Of a stretch of 40,159 bases of DNA, positions 4,558 through 9,609 are shown piece by piece; the first letter of the stretch is position 1; each line of letters begins with the position of its first letter. The translations under genes were made by a program, and so were the position numbers. Source of the stretch: a virus. The notes under the pieces were generated by a model, which ran no database searches, was not told where the DNA came from, and saw only the letters and a program-made list of their open reading frames with translations. The stretch covers positions 1 through 40,159 of IMG/VR virus record IMGVR_UViG_3300023094_000006, one strand, 5' to 3'.

Positions 4558-4821
4558 ATGACCGAGCCACTCTCGCTATTCGCGCAGTACGTCCACCTCT
4601 CGCTCAACGCACTCGAGGACGCCAAAGTCTTGGAGTCCGAATCCAACAACGCCTCAGCCGGCCGGGCAATCGCAGCCGCTCAAGTCTACGCCACGCTGGC
4701 CCAGGCCGAGGGTGCCATCAAGACGGCCCAGCTCGTCACGGCCGCCTTGGCCGCTACCATGACCGCCGGCCAAGCCCACCAGCTAGCTAGTGCCGTAGAC
4801 GTGCTCACAGACCCCCAGTAA
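4558..4821 (+). CDS. Hypothetical Ala-rich helical protein (87 aa)
   Basis: An 87-residue protein with a TAAGGAA site before ATG 4558, 8 bp after the ThyA-like gene. Ala is very frequent and the sequence (AGRAIAAAQVYATLAQAEGAIKTAQLVTAALAATMTAGQ, quoted only as a region of residues about 32-70) predicts long amphipathic helices rather than membrane segments. No domain recognised. Confidence 0.65.
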   Translation: MTEPLSLFAQYVHLSLNALEDAKVLESESNNASAGRAIAAAQVYATLAQAEGAIKTAQLVTAALAATMTAGQAHQLASAVDVLTDPQ

Positions 4822-4859: not shown

Positions 4860-6041
4860 ATGAAGAAACTCACCACCCTGGCCGCTACCGTCTCGGTAGC
4901 CCTGGCCCTGTCGGTATCCGCGGGCCAGCTGGCCTTCGCCGACGACACCATCCCGACCGAGGAGGTCGCATCATCGCCAGTCATCGCAGAGGCCCCGCCG
5001 GAGACTACTGTCTCGACTGGATCCAGCCCCGCTACATCCGCCGTTGGCGCACCATCCCCCGCTACACAGGAGAAGGCCCTAACGCCCTCACCTGGATCAG
5101 AAGCATCGGAAGCCAGCCCCGCCATCTCGGCCGCCCCCATTACTCCGGTGACCCCCACGGCATCAACCCCAGCCCTCGCCTCCGTACCTTCGCCCGCAAC
5201 CGGTGAGTTCTTCTGGGCCATGCCGAACGGCGGCACCCCGGACCACGTCACCTACGACCAGACCTACTCCCCCCAGGGCGCAGTCACCCCGGGCGTCTGC
5301 TACCAGGTCGACACCTACCTCCTGAGTGAGGCGCCCAAGTTCACAGCTGACGGCAAGCTGACCCTGGGCGAGGACTACCAGAACGACTCCCAGCGTGGAG
5401 CCATCTCCTGGCGCTTCGTATGCGTTCCGGCACTCCCCACCCCGCCCGCCACTGTCGTGACCATCACGGTCCCCACCCTGGCCCCGACCCCGCCGACCTG
5501 CGACACCGCGGGCACTCTGCCCTTCCTCTCCAACCCGGCAGCTCAGAACCCCAACGGCTACGAGTTCCCGGGCCAGGGCTTCCGCGTCTACATCAGCCCC
5601 GCATTCTCAGGTCCGGGCGTCTACACCGCGACCATCCAGAAAGTCGGCGCAGGCTTCGACCCCGCCTTCCCCAAGGGCACCAAAGTCGTCGGCGCTACCA
5701 CCCAGACGCTGACCGTCCTCGCGGCCACGGGCTTCCAGTCAACCGACGCATCGGCCCCGTGCTACGTCACCCCGCCGGTCATCCCGGATGAGCCGACCGT
5801 CCCCGAGACGCCCACCACCCCGGCAACCCCGGTAACGCCCGCCACTCCTGAGCAGACTGTCCAGGCGCCCGTCGCCCCGGTCGAGCACGCCGTCACCAAG
5901 CAGACCCCGGCGCCTGCGGACAGCCTGGCCTACACCGGCCAGGATGGCTACAACTGGCCCGCCCTGTTCGTCGCCCTCGCGCTCGCCCTCATCGGCACCC
6001 TCGCCCTCATCTTCGAATCCCGCCGCAACAAGAACGTCTAG
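4860..6041 (+). CDS. Secreted, sortase-anchored surface protein (signal peptide and LAYTG sorting signal)
   Basis: A 393-residue protein with a Sec signal peptide: MKK, a hydrophobic stretch to about residue 22, and a likely cleavage after AFA (residue 27). Residues 28-120 and about 300-350 are Pro/Thr/Ala/Glu-rich linkers like wall-spanning stalks. The middle holds a globular part with four Cys (GVCYQ, FVCVP, TCDTAG, APCYV) that could form two disulfides. The C-terminus has LAYTG at 356-360, a hydrophobic span, and a charged tail ESRRNKNV: the layout of a sortase substrate, with LAxTG as used by actinobacterial class E sortases. The host would anchor it to peptidoglycan. A role in superinfection exclusion or surface change is inferred. 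Ribosome site TAAGGAA. Confidence 0.85.
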   Translation: MKKLTTLAATVSVALALSVSAGQLAFADDTIPTEEVASSPVIAEAPPETTVSTGSSPATSAVGAPSPATQEKALTPSPGSEASEASPAISAAPITPVTPTASTPALASVPSPATGEFFWAMPNGGTPDHVTYDQTYSPQGAVTPGVCYQVDTYLLSEAPKFTADGKLTLGEDYQNDSQRGAISWRFVCVPALPTPPATVVTITVPTLAPTPPTCDTAGTLPFLSNPAAQNPNGYEFPGQGFRVYISPAFSGPGVYTATIQKVGAGFDPAFPKGTKVVGATTQTLTVLAATGFQSTDASAPCYVTPPVIPDEPTVPETPTTPATPVTPATPEQTVQAPVAPVEHAVTKQTPAPADSLAYTGQDGYNWPALFVALALALIGTLALIFESRRNKNV

Positions 6042-6050
6042 GAGCCTCCC

Positions 6051-6236
6051 ATGATCGTCATCCTCATCATCTTCGCCATCATCGTCGCCCTGGGCATCAT
6101 CGCCCTCAACGCCGCCATCCTCCACACCGCGGTCCCGGCCCTCCTGGCCGACGCAACCAACTGGTGGGCCTGGGTCGGCGTCCTGATCGTCCTGGGGCTC
6201 GTCTTCGGCAGCTCGCGGGTTGGCAAGGGCAAGTAG
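6051..6236 (+). CDS. Small two-helix membrane protein
   Basis: A 61-residue hydrophobic protein with an AGGAG site 9 nt before ATG 6051. It has an N-terminal membrane segment (VILIIFAIIVALGIIALNAA) and a second one (WAWVGVLIVLGLVFGSS), ending in a basic tail. It lies 9 bp after the surface-protein gene and is probably co-expressed. It is holin-like in size but is far from the endolysin, so an accessory membrane role is equally likely. Confidence 0.65.
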   Translation: MIVILIIFAIIVALGIIALNAAILHTAVPALLADATNWWAWVGVLIVLGLVFGSSRVGKGK

Positions 6237-8537: not shown

Positions 8538-8627
8538 GGGCTGATAAGGATTGCCCGCATACTGACCCACGCAAACGCCTATGCTCAGTCACTGCGGATA
8601 CCGAGGGTTCGACTCCCTCACAGTCCA
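8538..8627 (+). tRNA. tRNA-like element with intact T arm, probably degenerate
   Basis: A canonical T arm is present: stem GAGGG (8603-8607), loop TTCGACT, stem CCCTC (8615-8619). The 3' strand CAGTCC can pair with GGGCTG at 8538-8543, giving a 90-nt unit of class II tRNA size. The parallel element at 9098-9189 pairs GGGCCG with CGGTCC, a compensating change that supports this pairing. I cannot fold a convincing D or anticodon arm, so the anticodon is not assigned. The 3' end lies one base before the HNH start codon. Confidence 0.4.
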
Positions 8628-8628
8628 C

Positions 8629-8889
8629 ATGCCAGACCGCAAGCAACGAGGTAGCGACTACCGCTGGAAGCGCACAGCCAAAGCTCAGCGCGCTAAGCGA
8701 TTGCCCTGCTTCCACTGCGGCCAGCCAATAGACTACAACCTCAAGTGGCCTGACCCTCAGTCCTTCAGTGCTGACCACCTCAAGCCGTGGGTCAATCACC
8801 CTGAGCTTCGCTACGACCCAGGTAACGTGGTGTCTAGCCACTTGCTCTGCAACCAGGTAAAAGGCCGACATCGTGGATGCCATCGATGA
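8629..8889 (+). CDS. HNH endonuclease, copy A
   Basis: An 86-residue compact HNH nuclease: LPCFHCGQPIDY (Cys pair), FSADHLKPW (catalytic DH) and NVVSSHLLCNQ (His and CN). The N-terminus is basic (DRKQRGSDYRWKRTAKAQ). ATG 8629 is chosen because copy B starts with the same residues. The two copies differ at about four of the first 74 positions, then diverge completely. The start codon lies just after a tRNA-like 3' end and has no ribosome site. The C-terminal residues after QVKG come from the sequence of a duplicated neighbouring gene. Likely a mobile nuclease. Confidence 0.85.
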   Translation: MPDRKQRGSDYRWKRTAKAQRAKRLPCFHCGQPIDYNLKWPDPQSFSADHLKPWVNHPELRYDPGNVVSSHLLCNQVKGRHRGCHR

Positions 8890-9247: not shown

Positions 9248-9318
9248 TCCCCTGTCGTCTAATGGCAGGACATCAGGCCCTGACCCTGATGATGGTGGTT
9301 CGAGTCCATCTGGGGGAG
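9248..9318 (+). tRNA. tRNA-Gln (anticodon CTG)
   Basis: A complete 71-nt cloverleaf. Acceptor 9248-9254 pairs with 9311-9317 (two G-U pairs), D stem GTCT/GGAC with a GG-containing loop, anticodon stem TCAGG/CCTGA with loop CCCTGAC, four-base variable loop, T stem GGTGG/CCATC with loop TTCGAGT, and discriminator G. The anticodon reads CTG, for CAG codons. Position 33, almost always U in tRNAs, is C. No CCA is encoded. The HNH copy B start codon is four bases after the 3' end, and the acceptor strand TGGGGGA is the only ribosome-site-like sequence for it. Confidence 0.85.
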
Positions 9319-9321
9319 CAC

Positions 9322-9609
9322 ATGCCAGATCGTAAGCAGCGCGGTAGTGACTACCGCTGGAAGCGCACAGCCAAGGCTCAGAAGGCCAAGCGACTGCCAT
9401 GCTTCCACTGCGGTCAGCCTATCGACTACACTCTGGTCTGGCCTGATCCACAGTCGTTCAGTGCTGACCACCTCAAGCCTTGGGTCAATCACCCTGAGCT
9501 GAGGTATGACCCGGGTAACGTGGTCTCAAGCCATCTGCTTTGCAACCAGACAAAGGGTAGTTCTGAGCACTACACCGCCGGGCTAGGTAATCTCTCCGAA
9601 GTCTTCTAA
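9322..9609 (+). CDS. HNH endonuclease, copy B
   Basis: A 95-residue near-duplicate of the HNH protein at 8629-8889, with the same CFHCGQPIDY, SADHLKPW and SSHLLCNQ motifs. The first 74 residues differ at about four positions; the C-terminal part (SSEHYTAGLGNLSEVF) is unrelated to copy A. ATG 9322 follows the tRNA-Gln 3' end. The YTAG residues and their DNA resemble the start of the gene at 8271, so this copy also appears fused to a fragment of that locus. Likely a mobile nuclease linked to tRNA genes. Confidence 0.85.
   Translation: MPDRKQRGSDYRWKRTAKAQKAKRLPCFHCGQPIDYTLVWPDPQSFSADHLKPWVNHPELRYDPGNVVSSHLLCNQTKGSSEHYTAGLGNLSEVF

Follow-up and report, generated by a model that had tools for sequence, protein, structure and literature searches.

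To our knowledge, phage proteins exposed on the surface of infected cells are known mainly as small membrane proteins or lipoproteins of temperate phages. Ltp of S. thermophilus TP-J34 is a superinfection-exclusion lipoprotein with the tape measure protein as its target (PMC3952083), and CwpV of Clostridioides difficile prevents phage DNA replication after adsorption (PMC4737114). A different mode of surface display depends on class E sortases of soil Actinobacteria, for which LAXTG is the signal (PMC5148588).

Here we describe a predicted wall-anchored surface protein encoded by a viral sequence of 40,159 nucleotides (IMG/VR record IMGVR_UViG_3300023094_000006, analysed over its whole length and hereafter called the window), which is taken to come from a phage of the soil bacterium Microbacterium. 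Like Ltp, it is the product of a phage gene and is predicted to be exposed on the infected host; however, Ltp is lipid-anchored and belongs to temperate phages, whereas the window protein carries a sortase signal and KaiHaiDragon, a carrier of the same family, is reported to be lytic. As regards membership of the Ltp type, the signal peptide does not end on a lipobox cysteine (the first cysteine of the protein is residue 147), and no described lipoprotein family was found in Pfam or PHROGs. CwpV is likewise a wall-associated surface protein, but the superinfection-exclusion-like effect belongs to CwpV, which is host-encoded and binds the wall in a different mode. The closest anatomy is that of the class E substrates, namely the chaplins ChpA-C, the SCO1860 LAETG protein and the Microbacteriaceae HTP proteins: all share with the window protein a signal peptide, a stalk, LAXTG, a hydrophobic span and a basic tail. 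In addition, some phage members share the bacterial HTP domain and show a weak match to the SCO1860 model in the tail. The window protein differs from the bacterial substrates in being phage-encoded, in lacking the HTP domain and in carrying a domain, called here domain B, that was not found in the bacteria searched.

Anatomy of the surface protein

A preliminary description, made from the sequence alone, had proposed a complete sortase substrate at this locus. The open reading frame was recovered exactly at the proposed position, with an ATG start and a ribosome binding site upstream, and every element of the anatomy was found (Table 1). The signal peptide, read directly, is MKKLTTLAATVSVALALSVSAGQLAFA followed by DD, that is, MKK, a hydrophobic core and AFA/DD. 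LAYTG lies 38 residues from the C-terminus and is followed by the span and a basic tail containing SRRNK. The preliminary description also proposed a four-Cys globular middle: the four cysteines (147, 188, 214 and 301) are present, but they form two separate two-Cys modules, of which the second alone is widely conserved.

Table 1. Features of the surface protein locus (positions in the window).
Feature	Position	Strand	Basis
Ribosome binding site AAGGAA	4844..4849	+	read from sequence
Wall-anchored surface protein gene (predicted)	4860..6041	+	ORF, ATG start, 393 aa; relatives in 85 phage records
Signal peptide, residues 1-27 (AFA/DD)	4860..4940	+	read from sequence
N-terminal Pro/Thr/Ser/Ala-rich stalk, residues 28-112	4941..5195	+	P+T+S+A 69%
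Domain A, residues 113-192, Cys147/Cys188	5196..5435	+	one close relative (L009); no confident model
Domain B, residues 211-304 (about 90 aa at 214-302), Cys214/Cys301	5490..5771	+	alignments, AF2 pLDDT 85
C-terminal Pro/Thr-rich stalk (predicted wall-spanning)	5772..5924	+	P+T+S+A 62% over residues 303-354
LAYTG sorting motif, residues 356-360	5925..5939	+	LAxTG in 21/21 full-length phage members
Hydrophobic span, residues 366-385	5955..6014	+	best 17-residue hydropathy 2.81
Charged tail ESRRNKNV	6015..6038	+	sequence
87-aa ORF between ThyA and two-helix gene	4558..4821	+	no match to Gack gp60

To estimate how often such an anchor occurs, frames of at least 100 aa in the window and in the fetched loci were filtered for L[AP]xTG followed by a span and a basic tail. 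The filter matched 61 of 3,454 open frames, and all matches listed were copies of the surface gene, its phage relatives, or bacterial surface proteins fetched as relatives. As the matches listed were thus all relatives, as domain B and the anchor recur in unrelated phages, and as domain B shows purifying selection (see below), the anchor is not a chance occurrence. Searches with the whole protein gave a weak match in NCBIfam to NF058583, an LAXTG tail model (E 0.0047, below the cut-off), and no family in Pfam or PHROGs at E ≤ 10. A scan for sigma-70 promoters found none.

Domain B recurs in unrelated Microbacterium phages

In the phage collection, 85 records carry domain B at about 65-75% identity, and every one of them is a Microbacterium phage; IMG/VR contigs other than the window carry it too. 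The carriers belong to unrelated lineages, including Mercedes (40 kb), Krampus (57 kb), Leaf (95 kb) and Magritte (133 kb), as well as Quhwah and KaiHaiDragon (53 kb, cluster EC) and Margaery and Terij (56 kb). When the window was compared with 40,000 of the 40,230 bases of Mercedes, and the antisense and shifted frames of the surface-gene stretch were set aside, the surface protein was the sole window protein with a match at E ≤ 1e-6. dN/dS values for domain B between the window and eight relatives were 0.15-0.39, which are rough values (dS was saturated against a ninth); domain B evolves under purifying selection. For domain A, the viral contigs gave a single close relative (L009, 65% over the region) besides a near-identical copy, and the phage collection gave none.

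The sorting motif is the constant part of these proteins. LAxTG followed by a span is present in all 21 phage members read over their full length (20 scanned and Kozie gp78) while their N-termini vary, and among the 20 scanned X is Y, Q, E, A, S, V, F or D. Three of the 21 (Elener, L060 and Kozie) do not carry domain B. Public records often label members 'membrane protein', and an exported membrane protein that sortase leaves unprocessed would account for that label; we consider this quite improbable, given that LAxTG is kept in every full-length member with X free, as in class E signals.

The family is apparently undescribed: no paper on phage LAXTG proteins was found among the open papers searched. 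Several LAxTG members, namely Quhwah gp85 (L006 5251-6576), Paschalis gp81 and Potty gp57, are annotated as 'glycosyltransferase' or 'DnaE-like DNA polymerase III alpha'. As judged from their sequences these labels are not supported, and the family assignment corrects them. The 877-aa member Magritte gp249 (L004 930-3563), near the end of the 133-kb genome, has several repeated modules after domain B.

Structure and relatives of domain B

The preliminary description pointed to structure prediction of the globular part, and this succeeded for one of the two modules: domain B alone gave a fairly confident AF2 model of mainly beta strands (pLDDT 85, pTM 0.71), whereas the model of domain A stayed under pLDDT 50. 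The best VIA match of the domain B model was a Rib domain (Z 3.8, 61 residues, 3.9 A), which tied with unrelated entries. Rib domains occur in Gram-positive surface proteins, but they have no sequence match to the surface protein, and the beta arrangement is possibly all that is shared. Neither Foldseek against pdb (nothing below E 0.5) nor a sequence search of domain B against solved structures returned a relative, and when both models were searched against a viral library, a protein of Microbacterium phage Cressida was the sole match at E < 1e-3. In the absence of any confident structural match, the fold of domain B points to no role in binding, and the domain could also act as a spacer.

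Outside phages, no relative of domain B was found when 84,980 species genomes were scanned with a pattern, when 398 Microbacteriaceae genomes were searched with an HMM, or in plasmids; as a positive control, the same HMM matched phage records that had been left out of the alignment. Domain B is constrained across unrelated phages that infect a single genus, is the one protein similarity between the window and Mercedes, and had no match in the bacterial searches. Together this suggests a function specific to phages, with a host-side target that they have in common.

The N-terminal parts of the phage proteins tell a different story. The HTP domain carried by the Mercedes, Krampus, Leaf and Quhwah members, among others, at whose place the window protein has domain A, occurs in bacterial surface proteins with LAxTG or LPxTG. 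Some of these bacterial proteins have a different two-Cys domain at the place of domain B; in a single HMM-HMM comparison it aligned with domain B over 42 columns (probability 42%, E 2.6e-4), which is suggestive of a relation, and with an ordinary HMM the match was not significant. Judging from these sequences, the phage surface proteins may be captured and remodelled host sortase substrates. Five of the loci (L030, L086, L088, L090 and L093) encode uncharacterised Microbacteriaceae surface proteins with the HTP domain and a second two-Cys domain, and the one tested, L086, has no Pfam family above the cut-off. In phage Elener, which infects another host genus, Curtobacterium, a surface protein with an LAFTG motif (gp44, L078 3920-5182) carries the HTP domain and no domain B.

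Host sortase and probable wall display

A class E sortase model matched 94 of 100 Microbacteriaceae genomes, 89 of them above the curated cut-off, the host family standing in here for the strain infected by the window phage. The window record and 13 related phage records were searched for a sortase gene, and none was found. Since the enzyme is present in the host family and was found in none of these phage records, the phage would depend on the sortase of its host. Display by the infected host, as the preliminary description had proposed, is well supported by the class E signal, the near-universal sortase of the family and the anchor of all 21 relatives, and the infected cell very probably displays the surface protein on its wall.

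A candidate exclusion protein

The explanation that best covers the whole, to which we give slightly less than an even chance, is a wall-anchored protein that excludes superinfection or re-adsorption. The phage would make a secreted surface protein during infection; the host Sec pathway would export it and the C-terminal span would retain it in the membrane. The host class E sortase, as the signal and the presence of the enzyme suggest, would then cut LAYTG between T and G and link the protein to peptidoglycan, and the stalks would lift both domains, A and B, clear of the wall. We propose that domain B, which hardly differs between many unrelated phages, binds a wall component that is itself conserved, most probably the carbohydrate receptor of these phages. 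Infected cells, and at a later stage their debris, would then cease to adsorb or admit further phages.

Exclusion as the function, one of the roles that the preliminary description listed beside receptor masking and altered attachment, is our best guess, and a tentative one. It has precedents among surface proteins in Ltp (PMC3952083) and CwpV (PMC4737114), and the carrier KaiHaiDragon, a lytic phage with a latent period of 90 min, uses a carbohydrate receptor (PMC9224216). In cluster EC, moreover, the surface gene lies upstream of genes for a sigma factor, a ParB-like protein, a glycosyltransferase and a UDP-glucose dehydrogenase, the last two of which fit a role in exclusion. However, within 90 min the phage would have little time to cover the wall, and the same anatomy is explained by adhesion.

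Adhesion is the main rival. As an adhesin or aggregation factor, the protein would make infected cells stick to uninfected neighbours, to biofilm or to plant and soil matter, and progeny would be released beside new hosts. Fibrillar adhesins typically have stalks and exchangeable outer modules on a constant anchor, and the phage family is built in the same way, with long stalks and outer modules that are exchanged; the N-terminal HTP domain of other phage members also occurs in bacterial sortase substrates of the host group. Yet no recognised adhesin or carbohydrate-binding domain was found, and adhesin heads usually diversify, whereas domain B is very uniform. We regard an adhesin as rather unlikely, though less so than the other alternatives.

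Covalent linkage to the wall would persist on debris, and carbohydrate receptors, to judge from the KaiHaiDragon receptor (PMC9224216), would stay on wall fragments. Both points would also suit a protein that aids progeny release or sets lysis timing with no part in exclusion, either by preventing sticking to debris only or by flooding the cell with substrate that ties up sortase E and lipid II and weakens the wall. Such a role seems improbable: a protein that jams the sortase would not need a conserved ectodomain, whereas here conservation is highest in domain B.

If the family, present in at least 85 phage records, does borrow the host sortase, phages reported to be lytic would also rebuild the cell exterior, within a cycle of about 90 minutes. 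More speculatively, lytic actinophages of many unrelated lineages might covalently link a phage-specific receptor-blocking domain to the wall of the infected cell by means of the host class E sortase, as a system of superinfection or re-adsorption exclusion whose outer domains are exchangeable and whose anchor is constant. The idea is directly testable, since KaiHaiDragon and many other carriers grow on the laboratory strain M. foliorum NRRL B-24224, and domain B might serve as a specific probe for the binding targets of Microbacterium phages.

Genome position of the surface gene

The window phage has a backbone of the Gack, Brahms and Dismas type, with DHFR, ThyA, small genes, tRNA-Gln, HNH and TerS. 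The surface gene lies between ThyA and the small genes before tRNA-Gln, HNH and TerS; it is thus outside the virion cluster and near a nucleotide gene, in agreement with the preliminary description. The other carriers inspected likewise have it away from the virion cluster, in many cases in a replication or nucleotide region, and in none is it next to head or tail genes. This position argues against a virion surface protein with an incidental signal peptide and anchor, as does the signal peptide with LAxTG, span and tail, which would send the product out of the assembly compartment; such a protein is very improbable.

A scan of the related phages (all of Gack, Brahms from 30 kb and Dismas from 20 kb) gave no anchor protein. 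Gack and Brahms have a two-helix gene directly after ThyA, and the window genes that follow its own two-helix gene match Gack gp62 (34/40 identical) and gp63 (29/69). The surface gene thus resembles an accessory gene inserted after ThyA in a Gack/Brahms-like phage. The two-helix gene exists directly downstream of the surface gene (6051-6236, 61 aa), as the preliminary description had noted, and was considered as a partner; this was rejected, as phages that do not carry the surface protein have a similar small gene directly after ThyA. Its product resembles Gack gp59 modestly (score 62; shuffles: mean 36, sd 6, maximum 55), and its score against Brahms gp60 was not above all shuffles. Mainly on the strength of its position and of the matching next genes, the two-helix gene is probably part of the phage backbone and outside the surface-protein unit.

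In Mementomorivirus, Kozie gp78 (L117 2455-3717), an LAQTG protein whose signal peptide and anchor are of the type seen in the family, lacks domain B. It lies where Margaery and Terij have their domain B protein, before a small HTH/sigma-like gene, and one of its outer domains is common to the IMG/VR loci L020 and L022. In these phages the outer domains are swapped at one fixed locus, with the anchor kept.

Two copies of a published 18-bp EC motif, TAGACTATAGGTGTAAGC, lie around the Quhwah surface gene (L006 2943-2960 and 9287-9304), where zero are expected by chance; they may bear on the timing of surface-gene transcription. Elsewhere in the window, positions 8626-8864 and 9319-9557 form a 239-nt direct repeat (84%) that holds two copies of a small HNH endonuclease gene. 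tRNA-Gln (9248-9319) directly precedes the second copy; Gack and Dismas list one copy after their tRNAs.
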